Shown here one piece after another: positions 1,604 to 35,655 of a DNA stretch of 40,349 nt; within the stretch, counting starts at the first letter, position 1, and every line of letters starts with the position of its first letter. Source of the DNA: Deltaproteobacteria bacterium (lineage in GTDB: Bacteria > Desulfobacterota > Desulfobacteria > Desulfobacterales > B30-G6). Under the pieces are notes generated by a model, which was given only the letters and a program-made list of their open reading frames with translations, searched no databases and was not told where the DNA came from. The stretch covers positions 1-40,349 of the forward strand of contig JAJDNW010000067.1 of assembly GCA_022340465.1 (NCBI GenBank). The letters are read 5' to 3'. A program made the translations under genes and the position numbers.

Positions 1604-3296
1604 TCGATTCTGGAAGAAAAATTGGGATGAAGGCGTCGAAGACCTGGAGGCACACGAGTTTGAAACCACTTACGATGAAATGATCGAACAAGCCTTTAAG
1701 GAAGTGCCCGACAAAACCGCGATGGGCTACCTGGGAGTCAACCTGACCTTCGGCGAATTGGACAAGCGCGCCAACCAGTTCGCCAACATGCTCATCAAGA
1801 ACGGCTTCAAAAAGGGTGATGTAGTCGGGGTCAATCTGCCCAACATCCCCCAGTACGTCATCACGGTCATCGGCACTTTGCGCGCCGGCTGCATCGTTTC
1901 CGGCGTCTCCCCCCTTTTGTCCGCCGAACAGATCAAGTACCAGCTCAACGACCTCGGCAGCACCGGGAAAAAAGTGGCGCTGGTAACCCTGGACGCCATT
2001 TTCGCCGGTCACCTGGTCAACATCGTCGGCGACATTCCCCAACTGAAACTGGTGGTGGCCACCAGTGTCGCCAGTTTCCTGCCCAAGATCAAACAGATCC
2101 TGGGAAAACTCCTGAAAAAAATCCCCACGGGGAAGGTGACCCCCCTTGCGGGTGTCACGGTTCTGGACTATTGGAAAAATGTGTTCGGCGAATATGCCGA
2201 CACCCCCGTGAACGGCGGTTTGACACCCGACGACATCGGCTGGATACAGTACACGGGAGGAACCACCGGCGACCCCAAGGGCGCCATGCTCAGCCACCGC
2301 AACGCTGCACACAACATCCTCAGCATCTGCCGCTGGCTGGGATGGGAAAGAGGCAAGGGTATCCTGCTGTCCGGGTTTCCCTTCTTTCACATCGCCGGGC
2401 TTACCGTGTGTGAATGCGCCATTTTCCTGGGATGGACCCAGGTGCTGATCCCCAACCCGCGGGACACGGACCATATCTGCACCGAGATGGAAAAATACAA
2501 ACCCACCAACATGGCCAACGTCCCCTCCCTGTATCAGATGCTCCTGGAAAACCCAAAATTCAAGGCCATGGACCACACCTCCCTCGGCATCGTTATCTCC
2601 GCGGCAGCGCCCTTTCCCCACGATTCACAGGTGGAACTCGAAAAGATTATCGGAAAAGGCAAGCTGCTCGAACTTTACGGCATGACCGAAACCTCGCCGG
2701 TATCCACCATGAACCCCTCCAAAGGTCCCAAGAAGCTCGGCACCGTAGGTATGCCCTTTCTGAACACGGAACTCAAGCTGGTGGCCCCGGAATCGGGCGA
2801 GGAGGTCCCCATCGGGGAAGCCGGCGAAATATGCATCAAGGGCCCCCTGGTCATGCAGGGCTATTTCAACAAACCCGAGGCCACCAGAAATGCGATCGAT
2901 GCCGACGGCTACATGCACACCGGCGACGTGGCCATCATGGATGAAGACGGCTTTTTGAGAATCGTGGACCGCACCAAGGACATGATCATCGTCGGCGGAT
3001 TCAAGGTGTTTTCCAGCAAGGTGGAAGACATCATTTCCAAGCACCCGGCGGTGGGCGTCATGGCCCTCATTGGCGAACCCAACCCGGAGCGGCCCGGCTC
3101 GGAAATCGTGAAGGCCTATATTCAGAAAAGCCAGGATTATGTGTTCGACGGGACCGAAGACGAACTGAAGGAGGATATTATCAAGTTCGCCAAAGAGAAA
3201 TGCGCCCCTTACGAGGTGCCCAAAAAAATCGAACTAATCGATGAAATACCTCTTACTGCCGTCGGCAAGATCGATAAAAAAGCACTCAGAAAATAG
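1593..3296 (+). CDS. Acyl-CoA ligase (AMP-forming, FadD-like)
   Basis: This is a 567-residue member of the ANL superfamily, the usual length for a long- or medium-chain fatty-acyl or aryl-CoA ligase. It would activate a carboxylic acid to its CoA thioester through an acyl-adenylate. Visible motifs are the P-loop YTGGTTGDPKG near residue 220, LYGMTETS near 362, the hinge region with HTGD near 440 and DRTKDMI, and the C-terminal A10 motif PLTAVGK with the catalytic lysine near 557. That lysine is the kind acetylated by Pat/AcuA-type enzymes, and an AcuA-like gene lies at 18170. A good ribosome site (AGAGGAGG) precedes ATG 1593. The stop codon lies inside a strong terminator hairpin, so the gene appears monocistronic. 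The substrate cannot be read from sequence. Confidence 0.92.
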   Translation: MYADRFWKKNWDEGVEDLEAHEFETTYDEMIEQAFKEVPDKTAMGYLGVNLTFGELDKRANQFANMLIKNGFKKGDVVGVNLPNIPQYVITVIGTLRAGCIVSGVSPLLSAEQIKYQLNDLGSTGKKVALVTLDAIFAGHLVNIVGDIPQLKLVVATSVASFLPKIKQILGKLLKKIPTGKVTPLAGVTVLDYWKNVFGEYADTPVNGGLTPDDIGWIQYTGGTTGDPKGAMLSHRNAAHNILSICRWLGWERGKGILLSGFPFFHIAGLTVCECAIFLGWTQVLIPNPRDTDHICTEMEKYKPTNMANVPSLYQMLLENPKFKAMDHTSLGIVISAAAPFPHDSQVELEKIIGKGKLLELYGMTETSPVSTMNPSKGPKKLGTVGMPFLNTELKLVAPESGEEVPIGEAGEICIKGPLVMQGYFNKPEATRNAIDADGYMHTGDVAIMDEDGFLRIVDRTKDMIIVGGFKVFSSKVEDIISKHPAVGVMALIGEPNPERPGSEIVKAYIQKSQDYVFDGTEDELKEDIIKFAKEKCAPYEVPKKIELIDEIPLTAVGKIDKKALRK

Positions 3297-10759: not shown

Positions 10760-13700
10760 TCAGCCGTCAACCTGTAAACAATCCTCCTGCAGCACCTTCT
10801 CCAGCGACGCCAGCAGGCCTGCTGCATTTTCCTCCGAAAAAACGAGCGGCGGTTTCAGTTTGAGTACGTTGTGCAGCGGGCCGTCGGTACTCATCAGATA
10901 GCCATGGTCCCGCATACGATTCACGATGTAAGCGGCGTGTCCGGGTGCCGGCTCGAGGCTTTGGCGGTCTTTGACCAATTCCACCCCGATAAAAAGCCCC
11001 AGGCCGCGCACCGAACCGATAAGCGAAAATTGGCGCATCAGGTTTTTGAAGCCGGCCAGCAGCCCGGCACCCACCTTGAGGGCGTTTTCCTGCAACCGCT
11101 CCTCTTGGATGACGTCCAGCACCGCCATGCCGATGGCGCACGACACGGGATTGCCGCCGAAGGTGTTGAAATACTCCATCCCGTTGTAAAAAGCATCCGC
11201 GATTTCGCGCGTGGTCACGACGGCCGCCATGGGGTGGCCGTTGCCGATCGGCTTTCCAACGGTAACGATGTCCGGTACACAGCCTTGTGTTTCAAAGGCC
11301 CAGAAGTGGGTGCCGGCGCGACCGAGGCCGACCTGCACCTCGTCCGCGATGCAGACGCCGCCGGCGGCACGGACATGCTCAAAGGCCAGCCGCATGTAAT
11401 TGTCGGGCAGCACCACCTGTCCGCCGCACCCCAGTATGCTCTCACAGATAAAGGCAGGGCCGCCCCTTCCATGATCGGCTATCTGCAGAACGGCTTCCTT
11501 GACGTAGGCGGCGTAGGCGGCAGCGGTGGCCTGATCCATCCCTTTATGCGGCCCGCGATAGCCGTCGGGCATGACAACGGTTTTCACATACCCCGGCGCC
11601 CCCATCCCCCCCGGGCCGTCATGCTTGTACGGGCTGACGTCTATGAGCAGATTGGTGTTACCGTGATAGGAACCGTCAAGGGAAATAATCTCTTTCCCGC
11701 CGGTGTAGGCCCTCGCCAGGCGGAAAGCGAGCTCGTTGGCCTCGCTGCCGGTGCAAACGAAAAAGCAGACGCTCAATGGGTCCGGGAGCGTTGTGAGCAG
11801 GCGCCGGGCGTATTCCACGATGTTGTCGTGCAGATAGCGTGTGTTGGTGTTCAACACCGCCATTTGCCGCTGCCCGGCATGCACCACATGGGGGTGGCAG
11901 TGCCCCACATGGCTCACGTTGTTGACACCGTCCACATAGACCTGACCGTCCTCGCTGAACAGATACTGCGCCTCCCCCCTGACGATTTTCAACGGATTGT
12001 CGTAGGAAATGCTCAGGTTGCGCCCGATGTGCGCCTCCCTGAAAGCCAGGATCTCCTTTTCCGTCCTCCCGCTGAATTTCAGACAGGTTTCGGGGATTCC
12101 CAGGATGACATTCGGATCCGGGCAGATGCTTTGCCATACCGTTTCCCGGCTGGGCCGGGCCACCCCGGGGAAGTTTCCGGCTGCATCCAGCATGTCGGTG
12201 ATGACCTGAAAGTGGAGGTGCGGCGGCCACCCGCCGTTCACCGCAGTGTCGCCCACTTCGGCAAACACCTCGCCCTTTTCGATGATCCTTCCAGCCGTCA
12301 ATCCGTCCAGGGATTCCAAGCTCAAATGCCCGTAAAGGGTGTAAAAGGGGCCTTCTCCCGTGGTGTGTTCCAGAATAATGGTGGGGCCGTAATCCAGCGG
12401 CACGGCATTGTTGTGAAAACTGTGGACCTTGCCCTCCATGAATGCAAAGACAGATGCGCCGGCGTCCATGTAGAGGTCGATGCCCAGATGAATCGTTCGC
12501 CGTTCCGGCATGGCTTCCGTTTTGTTTTCATAGGCCGCTGTGCGATAGATAAAGCGGGCTTCGCCATAGCGGCCTATGCCGACCTTGGCATTGTGGCGGT
12601 GCAGTTCCGCCGTTATGCGGTCTGCCAGAAGGACGGCGTCACCGGCTTTCTGCCCCGGCCCCAAAAAGGCGCTGCCCACGGAGAGATCGAATACGAGCTG
12701 GTCCGGCTTGTGAAGGCCTGGCTCGACCACGGGCGCGAACTCCTTGCGCCGCTCCTCCAGCCACGCCAAAATGCGGCTGCTGTGAGCCACCGGCTGCAAT
12801 CCGCAGGCCGCCCTGAAAACATAACGGGCCAAACGTGGATGAATGCCCTCAAGGCGCTGCAGCAGCGACCAGGCCGGCTTCTCCGAAATGCGCAGGTAAG
12901 CGTTTTCCGGTTCCAGGCTGAACTGGTGGGCGCTGTGGCACACGCTCATGCAAAGTCGCATGCATATAAGGCCGTAAAGGGCCTCGAGTTCCGCTTCCGA
13001 CAGCGGGTTTATTTCGTGGTAGCCCTTGACAATATGTCCGGCGACGGCCAGCGGGTCATGTTTCCCCAGCATGGCGTACGCACACACGATGGCCAGTTCA
13101 TTCACCGTCCGGGTGTGCGCCATGTCGCCGAAGTCGATGAGGCCGTCCACCCGGTTTCCCCATTTCCCATCGGGAACGACCAGGATATTGTAATCGTTGC
13201 CGTCATTGTGAATCACACCCACGCGCAAATCCGCCGTCAGCGGCTCCGTGTGTGTTTGAAACGTTTTGAGAAAACCGGCCACCAGGTGACGCCTGTTTTT
13301 TTCGGCAATGCTGCCGATCAACCGTTCAACCACTTGAGACGCCTGCTTCAAATCCCAGTGAAACGGCCGGTGGGCCACGGGATGATCGTATCCCGAAAGG
13401 GAACGGTCCACGCGGCCGAAAAACCGTCCGAGGTCAGCCAGCAAACGTGCGTCGTGCGGCTTTACCAGGGCGAAAGGCGTGCCGGGAAGATAGGTGAGCA
13501 ATCGCACGAAATGCCGCCTTCCCTTTCCACCGTCGACCGTGGTTATGGAATCCCCCTGCAGGGTCTTGCACACGGTCGGGCATCCCGCCCTGCCGCCGGC
13601 ATGTAGCTTTTTGTCCCGTCCCAATCGTTGCATGACCTGGTTCTGAAAATCCAGCCTGTCATATGCTTCAACGGCATTGGCGATCTTCAAAACGAAGGCC

Positions 13701-13846
13701 TTCCCGTCTCCCGTGGTAACGCTGAAATTTTGATCCCGCTCGCTGGGAAGTTCCCGGCAGGCGCCCGCGATGCCATACCGTTCGGCGGCTAACTTCCGGG
13801 CATCCTGCGCACTGAAATTCGGTGCGTGTTGTACGATTGATAACAT
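10760..13846 (-). CDS. APH kinase - M23 peptidase-like - class III aminotransferase/phospholyase fusion
   Basis: This large cytoplasmic protein is about 1,028 residues from ATG 13846; a GTG at 13897 is also in frame, but family homologs begin near the ATG. Domain 1 (about 1-400) is a phosphotransferase of the APH/hydroxylysine-kinase type with HNDGNDYN (HxDxxxxN) near residue 210 and IDFGD. Domain 2 (about 440-560) is an M23/LytM fold with HLGID, YGHL and HLHFQ, so its zinc ligands appear intact. Domain 3 (about 610-1028) is a class III PLP enzyme with the Schiff-base lysine in [11 protein letters not shown] near 864. Related human enzymes are hydroxylysine kinase and the ammoniophospholyases for phosphoethanolamine and phosphohydroxylysine. 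A reasonable reading is phosphorylation of an amino alcohol followed by elimination of phosphate and ammonia. The role of the M23 domain is unknown. Confidence 0.88.
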
Positions 13847-14022
13847 CTTTAATACCTTGAACCCTTTTTCCGCATATTGCCAGAGCGGGCGCCTCACCGT
13901 ATTATTTCGAACGTATAGCCCTGTTCGGCATTACGGCCGCTTCTAACCGAGTTTTTCACGGCCGCGGCGCTATTATTCCTCGGCAATCGTTGTGCCTTGG
14001 TTTGGGTTATTGACCCGTTAAA

Positions 14023-15203: not shown

Positions 15204-16627
15204 TTATTCGCAGGCCTTTTTTTTCAGCCTTTGGAACTCCCCATCAATTTCATCGCCCAGAGGCAGGGACCTGTGTGAAGCCAGAATCCGATCAACCTGC
15301 CGACGGGAGCGCCCCAGCAGGGTCTCCCGGCCCCCATCGTCCCACTCCTCGAACGACCAGGACCGTTCGAGTCCGCTCATTTGCCAGACGCCTGCCCTCA
15401 GCGCTTCGAGCGTCGAGGGGTGATCCAGAAAGTGACCGCCGGGTCCCTTTTCATCGATCAGATCTTCCATCCAACGATCCCCGCCGGTCGGAATGCCTTT
15501 GCCTGCATGCAGGCATGCATTGAATATCTCCACGTCGATCATCATTTTTTCAAGGCTCAAAATCATCGAGCTCCCCAAAAGTCCGGCCCCCTCCAGAATA
15601 TCCGGCCGGGCCATCACAGCTAAAGACGCGGTCATCGCCGCCTGGTAACTGCTCTGTATCCCGGGTGTGAAAGCGGCCGTACCCAGACCCGACGTCTGGG
15701 CAGCCAGTCCGTAATACCTGGCCATTTCGGTGGAAGCGGCGCTGATCAGACCGTGCTCGACGGCCCCGCTTTTTACACAACCGGTTCTGGGATCCATCAG
15801 CGCCGAAACCGGTGCGTAAATCACCGGCACCCCTTCTTCGGCGGCCTGAACGAGCGTTAACGTCGCCAGAATCTCGCAGTTGGCCATCAGCAGGGTGGAA
15901 GCCAGGCTGGCAGGCGCCGTCGCCCCCATCAGCGGCATGGGTACGACGGCAACGGGAAGTCCGTATCCAGCGAGTTCCAGATAGGCCTCGGTGTATCGCG
16001 CGTCGATGCGCAAGGGAGATTCCGGGCACAGCACCAGCGACAAGGGTTTTTTCTGCCTGATCTCGTTTGTCGATCCGAAAACGATTTGCAGGGCCTCCTT
16101 CAGCCAGACGGCGTGGTCGGTGGAAGCGACCACGTCTTGGACATGCTTGGAAAAATTGGCAAACAGGCTGTAGAGGTAGTCCACGTAATCACGCATGGTT
16201 CCCTTACGGTCCGTTGCCGTGACGATACACCAATAGACGCCTATTTCATCCAACGCATCCGCGAGGCGGGTGGCCGCCAGCCAGTCATCGAAGGTCGAAT
16301 CCCGGTATTCCCCGGTGACCCGGTCGATGGCTCTGGTTCCTTCTCCGGACATGAGCAGCGTGCAGCCCCCTGTATTCATGGGAAGGTCCCGGCCGGTCCT
16401 CCTGGCGCCCAGGCTGAATCTCCTGGGAACGGATTGCAGGGCGCGTTCAACCACCTCGCGGGGCAGCCGGACCACGTGGTTTTTCCCCCCGACCTGGGCT
16501 CCGTATCGTGCAAGGCAGGCTCTCCCCCTGCCGGTTTCCACTTTTACCCCGGTAGTGGACAGAACACGCAGGGAACGCTCGTGAAGTGCTTCTTTCTCAT
16601 CCGCGGAAAGAAGGTTCAAAACCGGTT

Positions 16628-16631
<4 letters not shown>
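15204..16631 (-). CDS. MttB-superfamily (non-pyrrolysine) methyltransferase
   Basis: This 475-residue protein of the trimethylamine methyltransferase family has its normal length and no in-frame TAG, so it is a non-Pyl member. Characterised non-Pyl members such as MtgB demethylate glycine betaine, proline betaine or carnitine and pass the methyl group to a corrinoid protein. Family features include the LPREVVERAL N-terminal segment, GCTLLMSGEGTRAID and LGSSMILSLEKMMIDVEI near the C-terminus. GTG 16631 is the start and overlaps the TGA of an eroded upstream frame (GTGA). No corrinoid protein or MtrH-like partner is encoded within the window, so the methyl acceptor must be elsewhere. The MFS gene follows after 14 bp. 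The substrate is unknown. Confidence 0.88.
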
Positions 16632-17897: not shown

Positions 17898-17910
17898 AGC
17901 GGCCGATGTC

Positions 17911-18144
17911 ATGATGACTGTTTGCAAACACCGCAATCTCGTGCTCCTGCCCGCAAAACAAAAACGGTTGCGTTGCCGCCACTGTCACTTGACAATTACC
18001 CCGGAAGAACTCGATGGCGGCTACTGTCCCGAATGTTACGAGGTCTCCGGGATAAGGCGGGATGACTTCGAGGAGATCGAAGACAAAACACAGGGCGCCG
18101 TCCAGTACCGCTGTGAGGATTGCGGTGTGCTTGTAACCTCATAA
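17911..18144 (+). CDS. Small multi-zinc-ribbon protein
   Basis: This 77-residue protein has cysteine pairs CRHC, CPEC and CEDC plus an N-terminal CxH, enough for two treble-clef or ribbon zinc sites. No enzyme domain is present. Small zinc ribbons like this often act as nucleic-acid or protein adaptors, but no specific family was recognised. It starts 13 bp after the DUF362 gene and ends at the hairpin 18141-18173, so it is likely the second gene of a two-gene operon. Two adjacent ATG codons (17911, 17914) could serve as the start. Confidence 0.7.
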   Translation: MMTVCKHRNLVLLPAKQKRLRCRHCHLTITPEELDGGYCPECYEVSGIRRDDFEEIEDKTQGAVQYRCEDCGVLVTS

Positions 18145-18173
18145 ATTTTCGGGCCTATGACCCAAAAATTTAT
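18141..18173. terminator. Bidirectional terminator between convergent genes
   Basis: A 13-bp stem with one mismatch (18141-18153 with 18161-18173) surrounds a 7-nt loop. The stem is ATAAATTTT-rich with a GGG/CCC core, so it presents T-runs on both strands. It separates the zinc-ribbon gene from the AcuA-like gene and overlaps the latter's last codons. Confidence 0.85.
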
Positions 18174-18799
18174 GAAGATACGCCGAAACGCAGCCATTTG
18201 AAGCGTTTGCGCAACGCTTCAGACACCCGCGCCCCGATCCTGGCCATGAAAATGTTCTCCGGTTTGAGGCAAATGTTGGGTTCGTTGGTCTGAAGATCCT
18301 GGAATCCGAAGGGTTCGAATAAAGCGATGAGCATTTTGCGGTAGGCTTGCGCCGTCATTCCGGAACCGTCGAGATCCCAGGTCCAGGAATAGCCCACGAG
18401 ATAGAGAATTTTATCCTCGACGGTGTCGTGGGCCACCATGCGTTTCATGATGGCGGCCGCCACGCCCGCCGATCGCCAGCGGCGGCAGACCTCGATCACT
18501 TTCAGCTCCATCATCACACCCGGCCCCAGGTCCAGCCAGCGAGCCCCCTGTTCGGGATGGTCGAGCACGCCGAAACCGATGATGGTGTCGTCCGCATCGA
18601 CGGCCAAAACGACATTGACCTCTTCCCTGGCGGCATCTTTTTCCAGGCTTTCCCTCTTGGTGTAAAGCGACCTGTACTGTGCATGGCCGCCAAACTCACT
18701 GTCAAATGCATACCGCTGAATCTCTTCGCTACTGCAAAAAGAGTGCACCCAGACGGCACCGGACCCTGTCTGCAATATGGCTTCATTCCGATCGGGCAT
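18170..18799 (-). CDS. acuA: AcuA-like protein N-acetyltransferase
   Basis: This 209-residue GNAT protein has the length and layout of Bacillus AcuA. Shared landmarks are IEVCRRWRSAGVAAAIMK (acetyl-CoA loop region), the YSWTWDLDG segment matching YYWHWDLKG, QAYRKMLIALFEPFG, the TNEPNI segment and FMARIG near the C-terminus. AcuA is known to acetylate and inactivate AMP-forming acyl-CoA synthetases on the lysine of the A10 motif. Both acyl-CoA ligases in this window carry that motif (PLTAVGK, PVSAAGK). The gene lies downstream of bamQ-bamA and a second GNAT on the same strand, so control of aromatic or acyl-CoA ligases by acetylation is a reasonable inference. No AcuC-like deacetylase is present in the window. 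Confidence 0.72.
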   Translation of the reverse strand: MPDRNEAILQTGSGAVWVHSFCSSEEIQRYAFDSEFGGHAQYRSLYTKRESLEKDAAREEVNVVLAVDADDTIIGFGVLDHPEQGARWLDLGPGVMMELKVIEVCRRWRSAGVAAAIMKRMVAHDTVEDKILYLVGYSWTWDLDGSGMTAQAYRKMLIALFEPFGFQDLQTNEPNICLKPENIFMARIGARVSEALRKRFKWLRFGVSS

Positions 18800-18822
18800 A
18801 CGCCCCCACGTTCTCGATCTGC

Positions 18823-18858
18823 AATTTAAACCGGTCCGTCAACGGGCCGCTTTAAATT
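18823..18858. other. Imperfect hairpin between the two acetyltransferase genes
   Basis: AATTTAAA (18823-18830) pairs with TTTAAATT (18851-18858), and the stem continues inward through mismatched CCGG/CCG blocks. It could attenuate transcription from the GNAT gene into the acuA-like gene; no T-run follows on the minus strand. Confidence 0.4.
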
Positions 18859-19412
18859 TAGAAGTCGCTCCATCCCTTGTGCAGGCGCTTGACCATAACG
18901 ACCATGTCGTGGCGTTTACCCCGTGGATCGACGGCGTAGTCCTTGAGCTCCGCACGCTTGAAAAAATCGAATTTCCGCACAGCCTCTATGGCGGCGTCTT
19001 CCATGCCGACGATCAGGTCCGAACGCAGCGCCTCCAGCCCTTTGTCCATGGCCGCCTGAATCAGGTCCAGCAGGATCCAGGTGCCCAGGCGTTTGTTCCT
19101 GAATTCGGGCAATACGATAATGCGAAAGCGCCCGACATGCTTGGTGGCTCCGAATTCGCGGGTGTGCAGGCTGCCGTGCCCCACGATCTTCTTGTTGCAG
19201 AGGGCGACGATGGCAAACACGCTTTCCGACCCCAGATTTTCAAACCAGTGCTGGATGACGGTGGGATTCGACGTGTCGTAGCGCATGCACCACCGGTCGT
19301 TCTCCGGTATCGCGTCAAAAAATTCGGAAAGAAGCCTTTCGTCCCCTTTTTCAAGGGGGCGAATGATCGCTTCTTCGCAGTCCTTCAGCACACACTCTTT
19401 GGGATAGCTCAC
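18858..19412 (-). CDS. GNAT family N-acetyltransferase
   Basis: This is a 184-residue single-domain GNAT. The N-terminal IIRPLEKGDERLLSEFF is typical of the GNAT fold, and the acetyl-CoA-binding segment VLPEFRNKRLGTWILLDLIQ near residues 104-122 contains the R/Q-x-x-G-x loop. It resembles the catalytic domain of protein acetyltransferases of the Pat group more than small-molecule enzymes, but the substrate is unknown. It lies 43 bp downstream of bamA and 58 bp upstream of the acuA-like gene on the same strand. Two acetyltransferases in tandem behind bamA is unusual and suggests a regulatory unit. Confidence 0.85.
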   Translation of the reverse strand: MSYPKECVLKDCEEAIIRPLEKGDERLLSEFFDAIPENDRWCMRYDTSNPTVIQHWFENLGSESVFAIVALCNKKIVGHGSLHTREFGATKHVGRFRIIVLPEFRNKRLGTWILLDLIQAAMDKGLEALRSDLIVGMEDAAIEAVRKFDFFKRAELKDYAVDPRGKRHDMVVMVKRLHKGWSDF

Positions 19413-19455: not shown

Positions 19456-20601
19456 TTAGATATCCTCGGGTTTACCCATCACCTCTGCATACATATCCAT
19501 GTTCCAGAGCTTGGCTTCAGCTAGATTTTGCCTGAACTTGATGAAATCGATGGTATCGCTGCCGGTAATTTTCTTGGTGTTGAAGGCCCCGAAACCGAGA
19601 AAGGCCTCGCCGCTCATGTTGGCCGCCAGCCAGTGGCGATTGGCATTCTTGCAGATATCCCAGAAATACTTCTTTTTCATGCGAACCCCGTCGATGCTTT
19701 TAATGAGGCACCCCGGAAAAAGATTGGCGAACTGCCACACGATCTTGTCTACCTCTTTGTCCAGCAGTTCGAAGTCGGCGTTGGCTTGATGCGCCTTTAC
19801 CAGTGCCCTGCCTTCTTTGAGGGCGTCGCCCTTTTTATACTCCCCGTAAACGATTTCCCCGTCTTCCACATAACGGTCGGTAACAATCATGGGGTTCCTC
19901 ACCCATTCGCCGTCGATCTTCAGAACCGGCGCACATTTACTGATCAGATTCTTGGCTTTCATTTTATAGGCCGACCACATCTCACAGGAAACACAGTTCC
20001 ACATGGCATCCTCGTTGCTGAGCATCCAGGGCAGAAAGTCCGAGGACCCGCCGTCAGGTGCCGAACCGTGTCGGGGGCCTGCCTGGCCAAATATGGCCAA
20101 ATCCGAAGAAACCGTCAGGTCGCAGGCCATGCCGATTTCCTGGCCACCCGCAACGCGCATGCCGTTGACCCTGCAAATCACCGGTTTCTTGCAGGCCAAT
20201 ATGGAGTCGACCATGTGGTTGAACAGCTCCATGTACTGGCCATATTCATCGGGACGCTGGCTGTAGTATTCGCTGTATTCCTTGGTGTTTCCGCCGGTGC
20301 AGAAGGCGTAGGGCCCGGTAGCGGTAAAGACCACGGCAACCACGCTGCGATCCAGGGATGAGTTCTCGAAACCGGCGATAGCCCCCTTGACCATCTCCGT
20401 GGTGTAGGAGTTGTATTGCTTGGGGTTGTTGAGGCGCACCCAGGCCACGTAAAGTCCCTCCACCGTGTTCCCCTGCGGGTCGGTCAGGGGACGCTTTTCG
20501 TAAACCACGCACGGTGCATCCGCATCCGTACCCCAGTGAACATCCGTGTGCAGCATGTGATCCTTCAAACTATTGTCTCTGGGCAACCATTCCAAAGCCA
20601 T
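19456..20601 (-). CDS. bamA: 6-Oxocyclohex-1-ene-1-carbonyl-CoA hydrolase
   Basis: This 381-residue crotonase-superfamily enzyme is far longer than ordinary hydratases but right for BamA/Oah. It hydrolytically opens the ring of 6-oxocyclohex-1-ene-1-carbonyl-CoA to 3-hydroxypimeloyl-CoA and is a classical marker of anaerobic benzoyl-CoA degradation. Diagnostic segments are FCTGGNTKEYSEYY, RVAGGQEIGMACDLTVSSDL, FGQAGPRHGSAPDGGSSDFL and WSAYKMKAKNLI. GGAG precedes ATG 20601. bamQ, which makes its substrate, lies upstream on the same strand, but the 234-bp gap between them contains a repeat element. This BamA is unrelated to the outer-membrane assembly protein of the same name. Confidence 0.95.
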   Translation of the reverse strand: MALEWLPRDNSLKDHMLHTDVHWGTDADAPCVVYEKRPLTDPQGNTVEGLYVAWVRLNNPKQYNSYTTEMVKGAIAGFENSSLDRSVVAVVFTATGPYAFCTGGNTKEYSEYYSQRPDEYGQYMELFNHMVDSILACKKPVICRVNGMRVAGGQEIGMACDLTVSSDLAIFGQAGPRHGSAPDGGSSDFLPWMLSNEDAMWNCVSCEMWSAYKMKAKNLISKCAPVLKIDGEWVRNPMIVTDRYVEDGEIVYGEYKKGDALKEGRALVKAHQANADFELLDKEVDKIVWQFANLFPGCLIKSIDGVRMKKKYFWDICKNANRHWLAANMSGEAFLGFGAFNTKKITGSDTIDFIKFRQNLAEAKLWNMDMYAEVMGKPEDI

Positions 20602-20835: not shown

Positions 20836-21945
20836 TTAAAAGTCCGGCACCAGGACGATACGCCTGTCCGGTGACTTTTTATGAGCCTCCTCGAAAGCCT
20901 CGGCAATCGTGCTCATGGGGCGCGTCTGCACGAACGGCGCCAGGTCTATTTTCTTCGACAGCACCATGTCGAGCACCTGGGGGTAATATTCCGGCAAACA
21001 GCCCCACGTTCCTATAATCTCCGCGTCGAAGGCCATCAAGCGGCTGATGGAATATTCGACTTTTTGCAGGCCGAAGCCCACGATAATCAGCTTGCCGGTG
21101 AAGCTGAGAAGATTGAGAGCGATTTCCTGACCGGGCTTGCTGCCCGTGACCTCGAAGATTTTCCAGCCGTGGCCCGCCAACCCCTCCTGCTTGCGTATCG
21201 CTTTTGCTTCCTGGGAAATCTCTTTGGGGGTTTTGCCGGTTGCGTCGATGGAAAAATCCGCTCCATAGGAGAGCATCTGCTCGAGCCGCTTCCCGTCTAT
21301 ATCGATGGCAATGACACATCCCGCTCCCAATGCTTTGGCTTCCTGAACCATGTACTGCCCGACACCGCCGACGCCGATGACGATGACATTGTCGCCGATG
21401 TCGAGCCCCGCCCTCTTAGCCGCCTGGAACGGCGTCGTGGCGGCATCGGCCACGACGGCCAGGTGCTCCAGCGGGATCTCTCCCCTGTTTTTGATTTCAC
21501 AAAGGTCGATGGAGGGGACAGGGATGTGGCTGGAAAAACCGCCGTAGATACCGATGCTGTTGCCGGGCATCTTCTGCGAAAGGCAACGGTTGCCCCTGCC
21601 GGTCTTGCACAGGTAGCATCGGCGGCAGGGCATGACCGCCGGGATCAGGACCTCTTTACCCACCCAGGCGTCATCACCGGCCACGACCGTACCCGCTATT
21701 TCGTGCCCCAGGGTGAGCGGTGGTTTCGACACCGTGGGCACACCGTCGTAAAAATACCCCAGGTCCGTGTGGCAGACACCGCATCCTGCGATTTCCACCA
21801 GCACCTCCCCCGGATTCAGTTCTGGAACCGGAATTTCGACTTTTTCGAGCCTGCCGGGAGTAACCTCACCACTTTCCCTGTTCCGTGTCGTGGGCTGCAC
21901 CATCTGCCAAGTCAATATGTTGTCCGGAACTGCTCCCATGTTCAT
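20836..21945 (-). CDS. bamQ: 6-Hydroxycyclohex-1-ene-1-carbonyl-CoA dehydrogenase
   Basis: This 369-residue zinc-dependent medium-chain dehydrogenase oxidises 6-hydroxycyclohex-1-ene-1-carbonyl-CoA to the 6-oxo compound with NAD. Catalytic zinc ligands appear in CGVCHTD and GHEIAG, the structural zinc site in CRRCYLCKTGRGNRC, and the Rossmann motif in GVGGVGQYMV. Length, motifs and the adjacent bamA support BamQ/Had over a generic alcohol dehydrogenase. ATG 21945 has a GGAGGAAA ribosome site. A candidate promoter lies at 22104-22132, leaving a leader of about 150 nt. The product is the substrate of the BamA encoded next. Confidence 0.92.
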   Translation of the reverse strand: MNMGAVPDNILTWQMVQPTTRNRESGEVTPGRLEKVEIPVPELNPGEVLVEIAGCGVCHTDLGYFYDGVPTVSKPPLTLGHEIAGTVVAGDDAWVGKEVLIPAVMPCRRCYLCKTGRGNRCLSQKMPGNSIGIYGGFSSHIPVPSIDLCEIKNRGEIPLEHLAVVADAATTPFQAAKRAGLDIGDNVIVIGVGGVGQYMVQEAKALGAGCVIAIDIDGKRLEQMLSYGADFSIDATGKTPKEISQEAKAIRKQEGLAGHGWKIFEVTGSKPGQEIALNLLSFTGKLIIVGFGLQKVEYSISRLMAFDAEIIGTWGCLPEYYPQVLDMVLSKKIDLAPFVQTRPMSTIAEAFEEAHKKSPDRRIVLVPDF

Positions 21946-22281: not shown

Positions 22282-23070
22282 ATGACCGACCCATTGATCA
22301 TCGTGGAAAAGGAAGACCATCTTACTATCGTAACCATCAACCGGCCCGAAGCCATGAATTCAATCAGCCCCCCGGTCAGTGCGGAACTGTCGGCCGCCTT
22401 CGATGAATTTGCCGCAAATGCGGATGAGTGGGTGTGTATCGTCACCGGGGCCGGCGAACGTGCCTTTTCAGCCGGCAACGACCTGAAGTGGCAGGCCCAA
22501 AACGGGGGTGAGGAGCTCTCCAGGCAGACCGCCAGGATAAAAGGCGGTTTCGGCGGAATCACCTCCCGTTACGATTGCTTCAAACCCATCATTGCGGCCG
22601 TCAACGGGTTCGCTCTCGGTGGCGGCTTCGAAGTCGCCCTGGCCTGTGACATCATCCTTGCGGCCGAACATGCCACCTTCGGATTCCCCGAACCACGGGT
22701 GGGCATGATTGCAGGCGCTATGGGCGTGCACCGTTTGCCGCGTCATATCCCCTACCACCTGGCCATGGGAATGCTGCTGTCGTCAAAACGCATTGCCGCC
22801 CAGGAGGCCATGCAGTACGGACTGGTCAACGAGGTCGTTCCTCTCAAAGACCTCTTGCCCACTGCTAAAAAATGGGCTGCCGAAATCATGATGGGCGCTC
22901 CTCTGGCCCTCCAGGCCACGAAAGAAGCCGCTCTCAAAGGATTGGCCTATCCGCTCGATGAGGTTCCCAAGGTGTTCCCGATGCAGGAGGCTATGCATAC
23001 GTCCGAAGATTTCATCGAAGGGCCCAAGGCTTTTGCCGAAAAGCGCCCCCCCCAGTGGAAGGGACGTTAG
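22282..23070 (+). CDS. Enoyl-CoA hydratase/isomerase family protein
   Basis: This is a 262-residue crotonase-fold protein. Both catalytic glutamates seem present: ALGGGFEVALACDI near residue 118 and FGFPEPRVGM near 136. The oxyanion region is AFSAGNDLK. The family hydrates 2-enoyl-CoA thioesters. Similar proteins include BbsH-type phenylitaconyl-CoA hydratases and CaiD-like hydratases; sequence alone does not decide. It is less like BamR than the gene at 25935. AAAGGAG precedes ATG 22282. It is divergent from bamQ and 214 bp upstream of the SDR gene, which has its own candidate promoter. Confidence 0.87.
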   Translation: MTDPLIIVEKEDHLTIVTINRPEAMNSISPPVSAELSAAFDEFAANADEWVCIVTGAGERAFSAGNDLKWQAQNGGEELSRQTARIKGGFGGITSRYDCFKPIIAAVNGFALGGGFEVALACDIILAAEHATFGFPEPRVGMIAGAMGVHRLPRHIPYHLAMGMLLSSKRIAAQEAMQYGLVNEVVPLKDLLPTAKKWAAEIMMGAPLALQATKEAALKGLAYPLDEVPKVFPMQEAMHTSEDFIEGPKAFAEKRPPQWKGR

Positions 23071-23199
23071 CCACAGTTCACCCCAAAAAGGGGCAACCCT
23101 GCAAGGGGCCACGCCCCCGACACCGCAGACGGCAGGCAAGCGGAAGCTTCGGAACCCCGGGGCCGACGGCACCGTTTACCCCAACGATGGGGTTTTTCC

Positions 23200-23228
23200 T
23201 TGACTTGGCTTTTATATAGCTACTATAT
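23200..23228 (+). promoter_or_regulatory. Candidate promoter of the SDR-thiolase operon
   Basis: TTGACT (23200-23205) is the same -35 hexamer as in the candidate bamQ promoter. A weak -10 follows, either TACTAT after 15 bp or CTATAT after 17 bp. The AT-rich direct repeats TATATAGCTA (23213-23222 and 23224-23233, 11-bp period) overlap it. The preceding part of this gap (23071-23190) has GC-rich small inverted repeats such as CCCC...GGGG near 23180. Confidence 0.45.
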
Positions 23229-23232
23229 AGCT
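23219..23232. promoter_or_regulatory. Shared 14-bp regulatory box, copy 2
   Basis: GCTACTATATAGCT matches copy 1 at 13 of 14 positions and overlaps the -10 region of the SDR promoter. It is part of a perfect TATATAG-CTA-CTATATA palindrome (23213-23229). Two independent sites in one catabolic cluster support a common regulator, which is not encoded nearby. Confidence 0.55.
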
Positions 23233-23284
23233 AGATTCCAAGCTGAACCTTGCAACTTAAAAAACTTTTGAACAGGAGAAACCC

Positions 23285-24037
23285 ATGAATCTCGCAGGAA
23301 AAGTCGCCCTGGTTACCGGAAGCAGCCGCGGGGTGGGACGCGCTGTAGCCCTCGGGTTTGCGGAACAAGGCGCCAAGGTGGTCGTCAACTACACATCCAA
23401 TGCCGAAGCCGCGGATCAGGTGGTTTCGGAAATTGAAGCCTTTAACACTTCGGCCATCGCCGTCAAGGCGGACGTCGCCCTGAAAGCGGACGTCGAGCGC
23501 TTGGTGGGCAGCGCGGTGGAGGCTTTTGGAAAAATCGACATCCTGGTCAACAATGCCGGCTTCACCAGGCCGGCCCTGATGGTGAAAATGGAAGAGGACC
23601 AATGGGACCAGGTGGTCGACATCCACCTGAAAGGTGCATTTCTGTGTTCCCAGGCCGCCGGGAGGCTGATGAAGGAGCAGAAAAAAGGTAAAATCATCAA
23701 TGTCACCTCGGTCGCCGGAATTGTGGGTACCGTCGGACAGGTCAACTACAGCGCCGCCAAGGGCGGCATCATCAGCATGACCAAATCCATAGCCCGGGAA
23801 ATGGCCCGGTACAATGTGTGCGCCAATGTCATTTCCCTGGGAATCGTGGCCACGGACATGACCGAAAAAATCCGGACCGATGAAAAATTGAAAGAGATCT
23901 ATATGAATCGTATCCTGCTGAAACGCTTTGCCGAACCGGCGGACATAGCCCCGGCCTTCTGCTTTCTGGCCTCGGACCAGAGCGACTACATCACCGGCCA
24001 GCTGCTGTGCGTTGACGGTGGATACGGTATGATTTAA
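23285..24037 (+). CDS. Short-chain dehydrogenase (FabG-like; probable 3-hydroxyacyl-CoA dehydrogenase)
   Basis: This 250-residue SDR has the cofactor motif TGSSRGVGRA at residues 11-20, NNAG near 90, and the catalytic Ser-Tyr-Lys set in NVTSVAGIVG and YSAAKGG. The C-terminal VDGGYGM is typical of FabG-like enzymes. Followed by a thiolase and its OB-fold partner, it more likely oxidises a 3-hydroxyacyl-CoA than serves fatty-acid synthesis. 3-Hydroxypimeloyl-CoA, the BamA product, is an attractive substrate. A BbsC/BbsD-type role is the alternative. ACAGGAGAA precedes ATG 23285. Confidence 0.85.
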   Translation: MNLAGKVALVTGSSRGVGRAVALGFAEQGAKVVVNYTSNAEAADQVVSEIEAFNTSAIAVKADVALKADVERLVGSAVEAFGKIDILVNNAGFTRPALMVKMEEDQWDQVVDIHLKGAFLCSQAAGRLMKEQKKGKIINVTSVAGIVGTVGQVNYSAAKGGIISMTKSIAREMARYNVCANVISLGIVATDMTEKIRTDEKLKEIYMNRILLKRFAEPADIAPAFCFLASDQSDYITGQLLCVDGGYGMI

Positions 24038-24150
24038 AATAAATTTTAACCCGTCAGCACCCGCAACGGTTTGTGAATTCAGAATTTCGATTCATTTAAT
24101 TCAGGGTCAACCAAATATGTAAAATTTATTATTTTTAAAAGGGGAAATAG

Positions 24151-25320
24151 ATGGGAGACAAAGTAGCGATTATCGGTGTCGGCCAAAGTAAATTCGTGCG
24201 GCAGTACCCGGGGTCTATCCGGGAACTGGCCTTCGAAGGGTTCAAGGACTGCCTGAGGGATGCCGGCGTTACCACCCGAGATATAGGTGCTTCAGTGGTC
24301 TGTTCGGCCCCGGAATATGACAAGCAGCGATCGCCTGCCGGTGTCTTCGCAGAGTATCTGGGGTTGAACCCCCAACCGACCTTTTATGTCGAGAGCCTCT
24401 GCTCCTCCAGCACCACAGGCGTCAGGCTTGCCTATTCACTGGTGAAGTCGGGACTGCACGATGTCGTCGCCGTTCTCGGCTTTCAGAAAATGTCGGAAAT
24501 TTCATCTTCGGAATCCCAGGAACGGATGGGCCGCGGCGCCGACATCCAGTGGGAGAGTCCTTTCGGCACCATGATGCCGGCATATTATGCCATGTATGCC
24601 CGAGCCCACATGGAAACATACGGAACGACGCCGGACGACCTCTCCAGCATCCGCGCGAAAGCCGCCACCTACGGCCAGATCAACGACCTGGCCGTTTACC
24701 GCAAGCCGGTCACCTTGGAGATGTTCAACGATCCGGAAAACATCATGGGCAGACCGGTGGCAACGCCGCTGCGGGTCGGCGATTGCTGCGCCAATGCCGA
24801 CGGCAGCTCCTGCATCATCGTCGCCAGTGAAGAGAAGGCCAAGACCTTTTGTAAAAAACCGGTTTGGATCATGGGACTGGGTTCCGCCACCACCAGCGTG
24901 AATCTGGCCGGGCGCGATCTGTTCTCCGGCCTGTCGGCCGCCCGGGAAGCCGCCCGGCAGGCTTACGATATGGCCGGCATCGGCCCCAAAGATGTCGATG
25001 TTGCCGAAGTCCACGATTGCTTCACCATCGCCGAAATGATGGCTTACGAAAACCTGGGTTTTGCCGAGCCCGGCGAGGGCAAGGAATTGATCCGCGGCAA
25101 AGAGACCTACAAGGAAGGATCGATCCCCGTCAACGTTGACGGCGGGCTGCTCTCCAAAGGTCACCCCATCGGCGCCACCGGGGGATCCCAGGTCAGGACC
25201 ATCGTGCTGCAGTTGAGGGGGGAAGCCGGCGACATACAGGTAAAAGATCCGGCAATCGGTCTGGTGCACAATATCGGAGGTGTGGGACTCTACGGCAATG
25301 TAACGATTTTGGGGAGGTAG
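24151..25320 (+). CDS. SCP2-type thiolase (BbsB-like or 3-oxopimeloyl-CoA thiolase)
   Basis: This 389-residue thiolase of the SCP-x/lipid-transfer class has the nucleophilic cysteine in ESLCSSSTTG near residue 84. It also has EVHDCFTIAEM, GHPIGATG near 334, and the class-specific ending VHNIGGVGLYGN. It would cleave a 3-oxoacyl-CoA with CoA. Such thiolases often require a separate DUF35 zinc/OB-fold protein, and one follows 2 bp downstream. The best-known pair is BbsAB, benzoylsuccinyl-CoA thiolase of anaerobic toluene degradation. In this bam setting 3-oxopimeloyl-CoA is equally plausible. AAAGGGGAAATAG precedes ATG 24151. The 113-bp gap upstream is AT-rich without clear signals. Confidence 0.87.
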   Translation: MGDKVAIIGVGQSKFVRQYPGSIRELAFEGFKDCLRDAGVTTRDIGASVVCSAPEYDKQRSPAGVFAEYLGLNPQPTFYVESLCSSSTTGVRLAYSLVKSGLHDVVAVLGFQKMSEISSSESQERMGRGADIQWESPFGTMMPAYYAMYARAHMETYGTTPDDLSSIRAKAATYGQINDLAVYRKPVTLEMFNDPENIMGRPVATPLRVGDCCANADGSSCIIVASEEKAKTFCKKPVWIMGLGSATTSVNLAGRDLFSGLSAAREAARQAYDMAGIGPKDVDVAEVHDCFTIAEMMAYENLGFAEPGEGKELIRGKETYKEGSIPVNVDGGLLSKGHPIGATGGSQVRTIVLQLRGEAGDIQVKDPAIGLVHNIGGVGLYGNVTILGR

Positions 25321-25322
25321 AT

Positions 25323-25757
25323 ATGGGCAACAAAAAAGAGGTCGACGACCGGTTTAAAAAATTCGGTACGGTGAGTTTCACCGCCATCACCAAAACCAAC
25401 GATTTTATCGAACACCTTGAAAAGGGAAACGTTGCCGGAACGAAGTGCCTGGACTGCGGCGCGGTTTTCTTCCCGCCCCGTGCCGACTGCTGCCACTGCC
25501 TGACCAGCAACATGGAGTGGTTCGATGTTTCCGGCAGCGGCAAGCTGGTCACCTATAGCAAGCTGACCTTCGCCCCCATCGGTTTCGAGGAGGATGTGCC
25601 CTACTGCATCGCCCTGCTCGATTACGGCGACTACAAGGTGTTCGGCCGCATATCGGGCAGCATACCCGAGGAGGAAATCCGGGTGGGCATGTCCATGAAA
25701 ACGGTGGCCAACACCGTTTCCAACGGTCAGCTGAATTATGTTTTCGAAAAAGCGTAA
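25323..25757 (+). CDS. Zn-ribbon/OB-fold (DUF35) thiolase partner
   Basis: This 144-residue protein has a rubredoxin-like zinc ribbon (CLDCGAVFFPPRADCCHC, residues about 43-60) followed by an OB-fold. This is the BbsA/DUF35 architecture, known to bind acyl-CoA and complete SCP2-type thiolases. It begins 2 bp after the thiolase stop with a strong ribosome site inside the thiolase 3' end (GGGGAGGTAG), so near-equal co-expression is expected. It ends just before a small hairpin, CCCCAA/TTGGGG (25759-25777). No independent enzyme activity is expected. Confidence 0.88.
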   Translation: MGNKKEVDDRFKKFGTVSFTAITKTNDFIEHLEKGNVAGTKCLDCGAVFFPPRADCCHCLTSNMEWFDVSGSGKLVTYSKLTFAPIGFEEDVPYCIALLDYGDYKVFGRISGSIPEEEIRVGMSMKTVANTVSNGQLNYVFEKA

Positions 25758-25778
25758 CCCCCAACATTGCATTGGGGA

Positions 25779-25842
25779 TTTCGTGCTTTCAAATTTTCGT
25801 GGTTTCGTGATTACTCTTTTCTTTGTGGCCTTTGCGCCTTAG
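25779..25842. repeat. TTTCGTG / TTTGCGCCTT-type intergenic repeat
   Basis: Between the DUF35 gene and bamR there are several TTTCGTG-like words followed by TTTGTGGCCTTTGCGCCTT. I recognise this as a class of recurrent non-coding sequence seen in many bacterial genomes, but cannot confirm copy number from one window. GTGAAAC (25851-25857) and GTTTCAC (25872-25878) form an inverted pair next to it. Confidence 0.45.
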
Positions 25843-25934
25843 TTTACCCAGTGAAACCAGGTGTTGCTTTTGTTTCACCGGGGTGCTTCAGAATTGTCTT
25901 ACACACGATGACCCAAACTGCCGAGGTTTAAGCC

Positions 25935-26705
25935 ATGACAGACGACCAGACCATCAAGCTCGAAAAATCGGAAGGAGTGGCCGGCATCACCCTGGACCGG
26001 CCCAAACACAACGTCTTCAACATCGACATGATGCGGAAATTTTGCGACACCCTCGAGGATGTCGGCCGCGACGACAGCCTCAAATGCGTCGTGCTTTACG
26101 GCGCAGGCGCCAGTTGGTGTGCCGGTGTCGATGTCGGTGACCACAGGCCCGAGATGGCACCGGACATGATCGCCACCTTCAACCGCTCCCTGACCCTTAT
26201 CGAAAACCTCGGGGTGCCCAGCATTGCCGCCGTGCATGGCGCGTGTCTAGGAGGCGGCATGGAATACGCCATTGCCTGCGACGTGGTGATCGCTTCGAAA
26301 AGGGCCACCTTCGGCCAACCGGAGGTCAAACTTGGATTTCTGCCCCCGTATGCGGCCATCCGCCTGCCGAAGCTGGTGGGAACCGCCAAGGCCATCGAGA
26401 TTTGCACCTCGGGAAAAATCTACGCCGCGGATGAAGCCCAATCGATGGGCTTTGTCAGCCAGAGCGTCGAGGACGATGAATTTACGGAAACCGTGGTGCG
26501 CATGATCAAGGAAATTCAGGCCAGCAGCCCCTTGATCCTGCGCCTTAACAAACGCGCTGTGAACCGCCACCTGGGAATGTCCGCCGGTGATGCGCTCGAG
26601 GGCGTGAGCGATCTGTTCCTCAACACCCTGATGAAAACCGAAGACACCCTGGAGGGTATCGCCAGTTTCTACGAAAAGCGCAAACCCGAATGGAAGAATC
26701 GATAG
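25935..26705 (+). CDS. bamR: Cyclohexa-1,5-dienecarbonyl-CoA hydratase
   Basis: This is a 256-residue crotonase-fold protein. Segments SWCAGVDVGDHRPE near residue 60, LGGGMEYAIACDV and ATFGQPEVKLGF match the Dch/BamR group better than ordinary enoyl-CoA hydratases. Both glutamates expected in active hydratases are present. BamR adds water to cyclohexa-1,5-diene-1-carbonyl-CoA to give the 6-hydroxy compound used by BamQ. With bamQ and bamA in the window, the three steps after ring reduction are complete. A GAGG ribosome site precedes ATG 25935. Its last codons form the 5' arm of a 20-bp terminator-like stem. Confidence 0.85.
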   Translation: MTDDQTIKLEKSEGVAGITLDRPKHNVFNIDMMRKFCDTLEDVGRDDSLKCVVLYGAGASWCAGVDVGDHRPEMAPDMIATFNRSLTLIENLGVPSIAAVHGACLGGGMEYAIACDVVIASKRATFGQPEVKLGFLPPYAAIRLPKLVGTAKAIEICTSGKIYAADEAQSMGFVSQSVEDDEFTETVVRMIKEIQASSPLILRLNKRAVNRHLGMSAGDALEGVSDLFLNTLMKTEDTLEGIASFYEKRKPEWKNR

Positions 26706-33467: not shown

Positions 33468-33948
33468 ATCGACGACCTTTCACCATTAGGCTGACCACTG
33501 TAACGGTTTTTGCCCCGCAGTTGCAACGCCGGTGTTTACGTGGCTTGTTGTTTTTTAATGGAAATGCCCCATCTTTGCAACTCAGGAAGGTGTTCGAGCG
33601 TGAAGGCGTGGCACCTTACCCTGTCCTCAGAGCGAAGCCGGGTTCGCCCCCCTGGCAGCGGAGGCCCTAGCGTCGAGGTTGAAACAATCCTGCATTTCTG
33701 TTATGAATGGCAGCATCCTCCTTACAAAAAAATACATGACGGTATTTACCGATAGGGTATTTTTTTCGATAGCCCCCGCTGGTGGTCAACGTGCAAGGAA
33801 GAGCCCACCTTTGAGCAAAGCGGCGGGCAGCCCTGACCTCAACGGTGCACCTTGAGGCGAATCCATCACCTTGAAGGCCGGTGGCATATTCTGTTGCAGC
33901 TGTCAACATAAGTCCCACTTGCTTTCGAACGATCAAAGGAGGTTGAGA
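33468..33948. other. 481-bp intergenic region without a supported gene
   Basis: Divergent region between the histidine kinase and the second acyl-CoA ligase. It contains CCTCAA/TTGAGG arms (33837-33842, 33852-33857) around the palindrome GGTGCACC. A T-run follows CGGTATTTACCG near 33738. Short open frames here have neither ribosome sites nor recognisable domains. Confidence 0.6.
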
Positions 33949-35655
33949 ATGGCAAAAATATTTACCGCATGGCCCGATGAATGGCCCCGAAGCCTCAACT
34001 ATCCGGAACAACCGGTCTTCTCCATTCTGGACCGAACGGCCTCACGCGTCCCCGAGCGCCTGGCACTCCTATTCGGAGGAATGGAACTGACCTTCGGGGA
34101 ATTAAAAACGCTGGCAGACCGTTTTGCGGCGGCCCTGATATCCACCGGGATCCAAAAGGGCGACAAGGTGGCCATCCATCTTCCGAACTGCCCCCAGTTC
34201 GCCATCGCCTATTACGGTGCGCTGAAGGCGGGCGCCGTTTTTACCCCCCTGAGCCCTTTGCTGGCGCCCAGAGAGATTGTCTACCAGCTCAATGACGCCG
34301 AAGCCAGGATGCTGATCTCCCTGGACCTGGTCTACCCCGGCATCGCCGAAATCATTCCGGAAACGGGGGTCGAGCACGTCATCACCACCAGCATCGCCGA
34401 CTGCTACAGCCCGGTCATCCAGCCCCTCAAACCCCTGGAAAAAATTCCCGTACCCGACACCCTCGACATGGTTGACATGCTCAAGGACAATGAACCCGAT
34501 GCGCCTGAAATCGAAATCGACGTCTTCAAAGACCTGGCCCACCTGGCCTATACCGGCGGCACCACGGGTCTGTCCAAAGGGGTCATGTTGACCCACTACA
34601 ATGTCGTGGCCAACACGTGCCAGTACGGGCATTGGTTCAACGGCGCCCGTCTCGAGATCCGGGATGGTGTGCCCCAATCCGTTCTCCCACCGGGGGTGGA
34701 TCCCGTCAAGGACCGGCCCAGCGCCACGGACACGGAGACCGCCCTGGTGGTGGTGCCCTGGTTTCATGCCATGGGCACCGTGGGCTATCTCAACAACCTG
34801 GTCTACGGCGGCACCACCATGGTGGTCTTCCCGCGCTTCGACCCCCAGGAGTACCTGCAGGGCGTGCGAAAATACAAGGCCACGGTCCTGGGCGGAGCGC
34901 CCCAGCTGTTCATCCCCCTGGTCAACCTTCCGGAATTCGACAGCCAAGACCTGGCCGGGATCAAGATCGTGTCCTCCGGAGCGGCTCCTCTGGCCATGCC
35001 CATACTGGAGAAAATGCTGAATTCTTTTTCCGGCACGGTGTGCGAAGCCTACGGCATGACCGAATGCACCATGGGCGCCACCGCCAACCCGCCGAACCGA
35101 AACGCTATCCGCCAGGGGTCCGTCGGCCTCCCGGTTTTCGACACGGAATGCAAGGTTGTCGACCTGTTTTCCGGCGAAGACCTTCCCCCCGGTGAAAAAG
35201 GCGAAATCTGCATCAAGGGACCTCAGGTGATGCAGGGCTACTGGAACAAACCCGAGGAGACCGACCTGGTGTTGAAAGACGGGTGGCTCCATAGCGGCGA
35301 CATCGGCACCATGGATGAAGACGGGTATTTCTATATTACCGACCGCAAGAAGGACATGATCATCTACAAGGGTTACAATGTCTATCCGCGCGAGTTGGAG
35401 GAGGTCCTTTTCACCCACCCGGATGTGGCCCAGTGTGCCGTTATCGGGAAACCGGCAATGGAGGTCGGTGAATCCCCGGTGGCCTTCGTTCAGTTGCGGA
35501 CCGGTGCGCAGGCCGATGAAAAGGTATTGGCCGAATACGTCAACTCGCAGGTGGCAGCCTACAAGAAGGTGCGTGAAATCCACTTTCTCGAGGCCATACC
35601 GGTCAGCGCCGCCGGAAAGGTTCTAAAAAGGGAATTGAGAGAAATGCTGAAGTGA
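33949..35655 (+). CDS. Acyl-CoA ligase (AMP-forming), second copy
   Basis: This 568-residue ANL enzyme starts at ATG 33949, chosen for the strong AAAGGAGGTTG upstream; an earlier in-frame ATG at 33871 lacks one. Motifs are the P-loop YTGGTTGLSKG near residue 202, the AYGMTECTMG segment near 364, HSGD near 446, DRKKDMIIYKGYNVYPRE, and the A10 motif PVSAAGK near 560. It would activate a fatty or aromatic acid to its CoA ester. It is clearly distinct from the ligase at 1593, with a longer insert around PPGVDPVKDRP. A dedicated aromatic-acid ligase for the bam pathway is possible but unproven. A weak GGC-TTTTT-GCC hairpin follows the stop. Confidence 0.92.
   Translation: MAKIFTAWPDEWPRSLNYPEQPVFSILDRTASRVPERLALLFGGMELTFGELKTLADRFAAALISTGIQKGDKVAIHLPNCPQFAIAYYGALKAGAVFTPLSPLLAPREIVYQLNDAEARMLISLDLVYPGIAEIIPETGVEHVITTSIADCYSPVIQPLKPLEKIPVPDTLDMVDMLKDNEPDAPEIEIDVFKDLAHLAYTGGTTGLSKGVMLTHYNVVANTCQYGHWFNGARLEIRDGVPQSVLPPGVDPVKDRPSATDTETALVVVPWFHAMGTVGYLNNLVYGGTTMVVFPRFDPQEYLQGVRKYKATVLGGAPQLFIPLVNLPEFDSQDLAGIKIVSSGAAPLAMPILEKMLNSFSGTVCEAYGMTECTMGATANPPNRNAIRQGSVGLPVFDTECKVVDLFSGEDLPPGEKGEICIKGPQVMQGYWNKPEETDLVLKDGWLHSGDIGTMDEDGYFYITDRKKDMIIYKGYNVYPRELEEVLFTHPDVAQCAVIGKPAMEVGESPVAFVQLRTGAQADEKVLAEYVNSQVAAYKKVREIHFLEAIPVSAAGKVLKRELREMLK

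Follow-up and report, generated by a model that had tools for sequence, protein, structure and literature searches.

In Rhodopseudomonas palustris, benzoate-pathway ligases such as BadA are reversibly acetylated by a Pat-type acetyltransferase. This organism already provides a known instance of ligase acetylation during the anaerobic degradation of aromatics, and acetyltransferases, according to a review, are often encoded away from their targets (PMC8388817). R. palustris also has BadL, which converts aminobenzoates to acetamidobenzoates and so relieves the repressor BadM (PMC6191541). A second family, AcuA, acetylates K549 of AcsA (PMC11255334) and K471 of MenE (PMC11619455). In the Bacillus subtilis enzyme, mutation of E102 or W140 abolishes acetylation; the phosphotransacetylase side activity of the AcsA–AcuA complex depends on H139, and an H139A exchange only slightly impairs acetyl transfer (PMC11255334). 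AcsA R552, at +3 from the target lysine, is contacted by AcuA W138 (PMC11255334), and MenE likewise has Arg at +3 (KLLR, a motif taken from a primer sequence; PMC11619455). AcuB senses adenine nucleotides (PMC13121692).

The window analyzed here, i.e., the whole 40,349-nt stretch of DNA, holds an acuA-like gene, bam genes, a divergent gene module and two acyl-CoA ligase genes. As the initial annotation had proposed, two acetyltransferase ORFs (18170–19412) lie directly downstream of bamA, and the order on the minus strand is bamQ, bamA, GNAT2, acuA: bamQ/had (20836–21945; 6-hydroxycyclohex-1-ene-1-carbonyl-CoA dehydrogenase, TIGR03201, 483.9 bits, over the cut-off), bamA (19456–20601; 6-oxocyclohex-1-ene-1-carbonyl-CoA hydrolase, TIGR03200, 554.8 bits against a cut-off of 464), the gene for a second GNAT, GNAT2, as the 5' partner of acuA (18858–19412; 184 aa, GTG start), and acuA itself (18170–18799; 209 aa, ATG start), whose product is a predicted protein lysine acetyltransferase of the AcuA family of GNATs. 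The successive gaps measure 234, 43 and 58 bp, and the 234-bp bamQ–bamA spacer is not a repeat element, being single-copy in the genome. A strandless inverted repeat (18133–18181; 21 nt, 86%, loop 7 nt) spans the acuA stop codon where two genes converge, as would be expected at the end of a transcription unit, and is likely a bidirectional terminator. On the plus strand, the divergent module (22282–26705; Pfam and NCBIfam assignments) encodes an ECH, an SDR (23285), a thiolase (24151), an OB/Zn-ribbon protein (25323) and a further ECH (25935), and its SDR–thiolase–OB–ECH part recurs near acuA or bamA in relatives. The layout of Bacilli, acuABC with a divergent acsA, is not seen: acuA neighbors GNAT2 and bamA, acsA lies on contig C160 of the same genome, and a gene for an AcuC-like deacetylase followed by a tandem-CBS (AcuB-like) gene lies on contig C30.

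Other genes of the window include a small zinc-ribbon-like ORF (17910–18145; three CxxC pairs, by eye) that is convergent with acuA and stands behind a DUF362 gene, a neighbor also present near acuA at two further loci (L194 and L196). Further off are an MttB-family methyltransferase gene (15204–16631; pyrrolysine trimethylamine model 343.8 bits, below the cut-off of 525), which adjoins an MFS transporter gene, and a gene for a 1045-aa protein in which APH-type kinase, M23 peptidase and class III aminotransferase domains are fused (10760–13897; PRK06148 family).

In profile searches of Pfam and NCBIfam, no AcuA model matched the 18170–18799 protein, and the Pfam GNAT models barely did (E = 0.02–0.03); its assignment to the family is therefore based on sequence and fold matches to PDB entries. 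Searched against the PDB with phmmer, the protein matches 2q04 (E = 2.8e-20) and chain C of 9g7f, B. subtilis AcuA (E = 3.6e-19), both over its full length (residues 5–205), and its single-chain AlphaFold2 model (built from 53 relatives; pLDDT 89) matches AcuA chains at TM 0.87–0.90, with the other GNATs among the matches listed at ≤0.54. Six residues—E103, W141, D142, R109, E98 and W139, equivalent to E102, W140, D141, R108, E97 and W138 of B. subtilis AcuA—are invariant in the 53 homologues, and the family has largely preserved the acidic residues that line the binding pocket for the ligase lysine (E98, E103 and mostly E86). The position of H139 is taken by Thr in 51/53 family sequences, including the window protein, and by Leu in the other two. 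Since H139 is dispensable for acetyl transfer, we did not count its absence against membership in the AcuA family. These data bear out the earlier AcuA-like assignment and support an AcuA-family protein lysine acetyltransferase with an intact active site. With the catalytic residues kept and H139 replaced by Thr, the enzyme should transfer acetyl groups but would probably not use acetyl phosphate likewise; its use of donors may thus differ from that of B. subtilis AcuA. Activity itself we infer from the sequence and the model.

The second protein, GNAT2, is a single-domain GNAT (PF00583, E = 3.4e-10) whose model (pLDDT 87) adopts the GNAT fold, with RimI-, phosphinothricin- and PatZ-type GNATs among its nearest solved folds. 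Its match to the GNAT domains of Pat is weak (26% identity, E = 2e-5), and it is not itself a Pat, having no CoA-ligase domain; both window acetyltransferases are single-domain proteins that lack the NDP-forming CoA-ligase domain. Of about 60 acuA loci, 45 have GNAT2 as the upstream partner gene. In one family (f33) GNAT2 has been lost, yet acuA is still found beside bamA or the module, and for this reason AcuA looks like the core component of the pair. Elsewhere, at four loci of one family (L274–L277), a thiolase gene is bracketed by GNAT2-like gene pairs, and the surroundings of two of these (L274 and L275) resemble a polyhydroxyalkanoate cluster, as judged from ORF starts only.

An AcuA-family gene is tied to the class II benzoyl-CoA pathway by both phylogenetic profile and synteny. 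Of 291 genomes sampled from the class, 64 carry acuA, 91 carry bamA and 58 carry both; bamA is thus present in 58/64 genomes with acuA vs. 33/227 without it (Fisher p = 2.6e-30). Related genomes do not count as fully independent observations of co-occurrence, but the signal survives counting by genus (bamA in 31/33 acuA genera vs. 11/90 others, p = 1.5e-17). Within the AcuA clade of the window, every one of the 37 genomes carries bamA (background, 21%). For 26 of them—a count that includes the genus-mate of the window by way of its GNAT2 at a contig end—no more than about 10 kb separates acuA or GNAT2 from either bamA or the SDR–thiolase–OB–ECH module, and in the remaining 11 acuA lies away from bam genes. 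Two gene orders recur: bamQ–bamA–gnat2–acuA on one strand, as in the window, and an arrangement with bamA in an opposite operon from which gnat2–acuA diverges. That the neighborhood is kept through such rearrangement argues for a functional tie. As gnat2–acuA is divergent from bamA in many relatives, co-transcription of bamA and acuA is not general, though at the window locus co-transcription of bamA, gnat2 and acuA is plausible. Among the named genomes scanned, Desulfosarcina widdelii and Desulfosarcina alkanivorans show these layouts; Desulfonema magnum has its acuA next to the module, with no bamA nearby. The AcuA protein tree, a quick tree with many open forks, places the window in this bam-linked clade, with a deeper set of relatives in other contexts. 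A search of the open-licence literature, whose coverage is incomplete, turned up no description of an acuA gene at a bam locus and no experiment on any member of this AcuA clade.

Among those other contexts, Desulfobacula/Desulfotignum-type relatives (L143, L152, L154 and L155) carry a deeper AcuA branch that has a cytidylate-kinase-like gene on one side and, on the other, a tandem-CBS gene along with genes for universal stress proteins and for an acetyltransferase of Pat type (NDP-forming CoA ligase plus GNAT). At a further group of loci (L139, L142, L146 and L148), genes for sensor histidine kinases and a receiver protein lie near GNAT2–acuA, a possible sensory context; in all of these except L142, GNAT2–acuA is followed by a gene for an ACT-domain-pair protein.

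By analogy with the proven AcuA substrates, an AMP-forming ligase would be the expected target of the AcuA-like enzyme. The initial annotation had proposed that acetylation controls the ligases feeding the aromatic pathway and, pointing to their target-type A10 lysine, had offered the two ligases of the window. The acuA–bam tie lends weight to the general proposal; the choice of targets does not hold up. The two AMP-forming ligases (1593–3296 and 33871–35655; both plus strand, PF00501) do contain the PLTAVGK and PVSAAGK motifs cited (in full, PLTAVGKIDKK and PVSAAGKVLKR), but the genome encodes roughly 35 AMP-forming ligases and nearly all of those read have the A10 lysine, so that the residue carries no information here and we discarded it as evidence of a target. 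Both proteins match long-chain ligase models best, i.e., are of fatty-acid type, both are encoded on the strand opposite to acuA at a distance of about 15 kb, and both have Lys, not Arg, at +3 from the A10 lysine. Nor is any AMP-forming ligase a conserved neighbor of acuA: one lies nearby at 1/60 and 2/80 loci in two partly overlapping sets, less often than is estimated for a random 18-kb stretch from a genome of this kind, which rules out the window ligases as conserved neighbors and leaves them unlikely as targets. On sequence grounds, likelier targets are encoded elsewhere in the genome, namely AcsA (contig C160; over the TIGR02188 cut-off, PKTRSGKIMRR) or a ligase closest to benzoate-CoA ligases (contig C136; GKILRR), the gene for which lies near an aldehyde-oxidoreductase-like gene (by eye). 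Both have Arg at +3, which, drawn from two known AcuA substrates, is a hint rather than a rule. An AcsA-like enzyme is also encoded on contig C37.

A search for a sirtuin or AcuC deacetylase, which had been suggested earlier, proved positive: five HDAC-domain proteins, among which one is AcuC-like, are encoded in the genome alongside two SIR2 (sirtuin) proteins, and with these enzymes encoded, reversible acetylation appears possible. A gene on contig C10 (L282, 6179–8176) encodes a 665-aa protein with tandem universal-stress-protein domains followed by a deacetylase domain. The genome also encodes a full Pat (contig C100; 899 aa, CoA-ligase-like plus GNAT), which is a competing candidate for the ligase acetyltransferase beside AcuA.

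The explanation that we favor, with a probability of roughly 0.58, is that an AcuA-type lysine acetyltransferase specialized to the class II (Bam) benzoyl-CoA pathway inactivates at least one acyl- or aryl-CoA ligase. The enzyme would be part of the Bam regulon in Desulfobacterales-type sulfate reducers and would respond when ring cleavage and β-oxidation fill the acetyl-CoA pool. It would contact at least one AMP-forming acyl/aryl-CoA ligase at the C-terminal domain, where E103 would deprotonate the catalytic A10 lysine and acetyl-CoA held at W141 would donate the acetyl group, switching the ligase off. This shut-off would halt further spending of ATP and CoA on acid activation, and would last until the ligase was restored by a deacetylase, sirtuin or AcuC-type, whose gene lies elsewhere. 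The feedback logic and the direction of control in this scheme we infer. A more tentative version, which we consider somewhat unlikely, is that AcuA and its paired GNAT2 form a lineage-specific two-enzyme acetyl-CoA sensor, with AcuA acting on a ligase and GNAT2 on a pathway enzyme or an inducer molecule; if so, the class II benzoyl-CoA pathway would be controlled through more than one target.

The AcuA-like protein could instead acetylate the classical target, AcsA, the bam site merely ensuring that it is expressed while aromatics support growth, a state in which acetyl-CoA abounds and acetate activation is unnecessary. The Arg at +3 that AcsA shares with both proven AcuA substrates, and the invariance of the Arg-contacting tryptophan (W138, here W139), are what such a pairing would predict. 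Yet acuA tracks bamA (odds ratio 57) far more closely than it tracks AcsA (2.6), and acs is not near acuA at any locus examined. Further, AcsA is present in 76% of acuA-less genomes and was not detected at E ≤ 1e-170 in seven acuA genomes (including G003, 99% complete, and G263), which disfavors it as the sole target; as an account of the locus, we judge AcsA possible but on balance doubtful. The partner gene brings in a different alternative, i.e., that the substrate of one acetyltransferase, or of both, is a small molecule. BadL, whose gene belongs to a benzoate cluster, is itself a PF00583 GNAT and has homologues in both Geobacter and Magnetospirillum (PMC6191541); single-domain GNAT2, whose nearest solved folds include small-molecule acetyltransferases, fits this role better than the AcuA-like protein, which has the fold and residues of a protein-acetylating AcuA. 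Even for GNAT2, however, the weak match to Pat domains points the other way, and no BadM/Rrf2-type repressor was found among annotated window neighbors (a set that takes in part of the small ORFs) or conserved neighbors in relatives, so that we consider a small-molecule role unlikely.

If conserved neighbors are read as substrates, the pair would acetylate the pathway enzymes BamA, BamQ and the thiolase module rather than a ligase, since it is these genes, and no ligase, that accompany it, and GNAT2 homologues of another family flank a thiolase gene. The known AcuA substrates are nonetheless AMP-forming ligases, the acidic pocket for the ligase lysine is largely retained, and the 11 genomes with acuA apart from bam genes indicate that adjacency is not needed, all of which makes pathway enzymes a quite improbable target. 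The same 11 unlinked genomes, together with the commonness of GNATs, might suggest two unrelated genes hitch-hiking with bamA by chance; against recurrence in 26/37 genomes, in two gene orders, and co-occurrence in 37/37 even where unlinked, we give this very little credence.

The main point of the initial annotation thus emerges stronger than first stated: the attachment of an AcuA-family acetyltransferase to the class II benzoyl-CoA pathway is real, and this lysine acetyltransferase family travels with the pathway in aromatics-degrading sulfate reducers of marine sediments, among them cultured isolates (e.g., Desulfosarcina widdelii and Desulfosarcina alkanivorans). Because acuA and bamA keep company across an order of sulfate reducers, our data suggest that this order regulates its use of aromatic compounds by protein acetylation, and they offer a specific case, amenable to testing, in which a pathway of environmental importance would be under post-translational control, with a short list of targets.

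Compared with described systems, the window protein shares with AcuA of B. subtilis and Exiguobacterium full-length homology (27% identity), the fold and the catalytic Glu, Trp, Asp and Arg, but differs from the B. subtilis enzyme in having Thr for H139 and Gly for E135. Its gene lies beside bam genes and a second GNAT, whereas that of Bacillus lies in the acs/acuABC locus; the AcuC-like and tandem-CBS pair on contig C30 resembles AcuC/AcuB. GNAT2 recalls BadL in being a GNAT encoded within an anaerobic benzoate cluster, but BadL works with the BadM repressor and no BadM-like gene is seen near GNAT2. Pat (PatZ) likewise directs a GNAT domain, to which GNAT2 is weakly similar, at the A10 lysines of ligases, but it has an NDP-forming CoA-ligase domain that both window proteins lack. 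The proposed logic is the same as that of the BadA-type ligases of R. palustris, where ligase lysines are acetylated in anaerobic benzoate catabolism (PMC8388817); there, a Pat-type enzyme accompanies a class I benzoyl-CoA reductase, whereas here the acetyltransferase is of the AcuA type, the pathway is class II and the two are physically linked.
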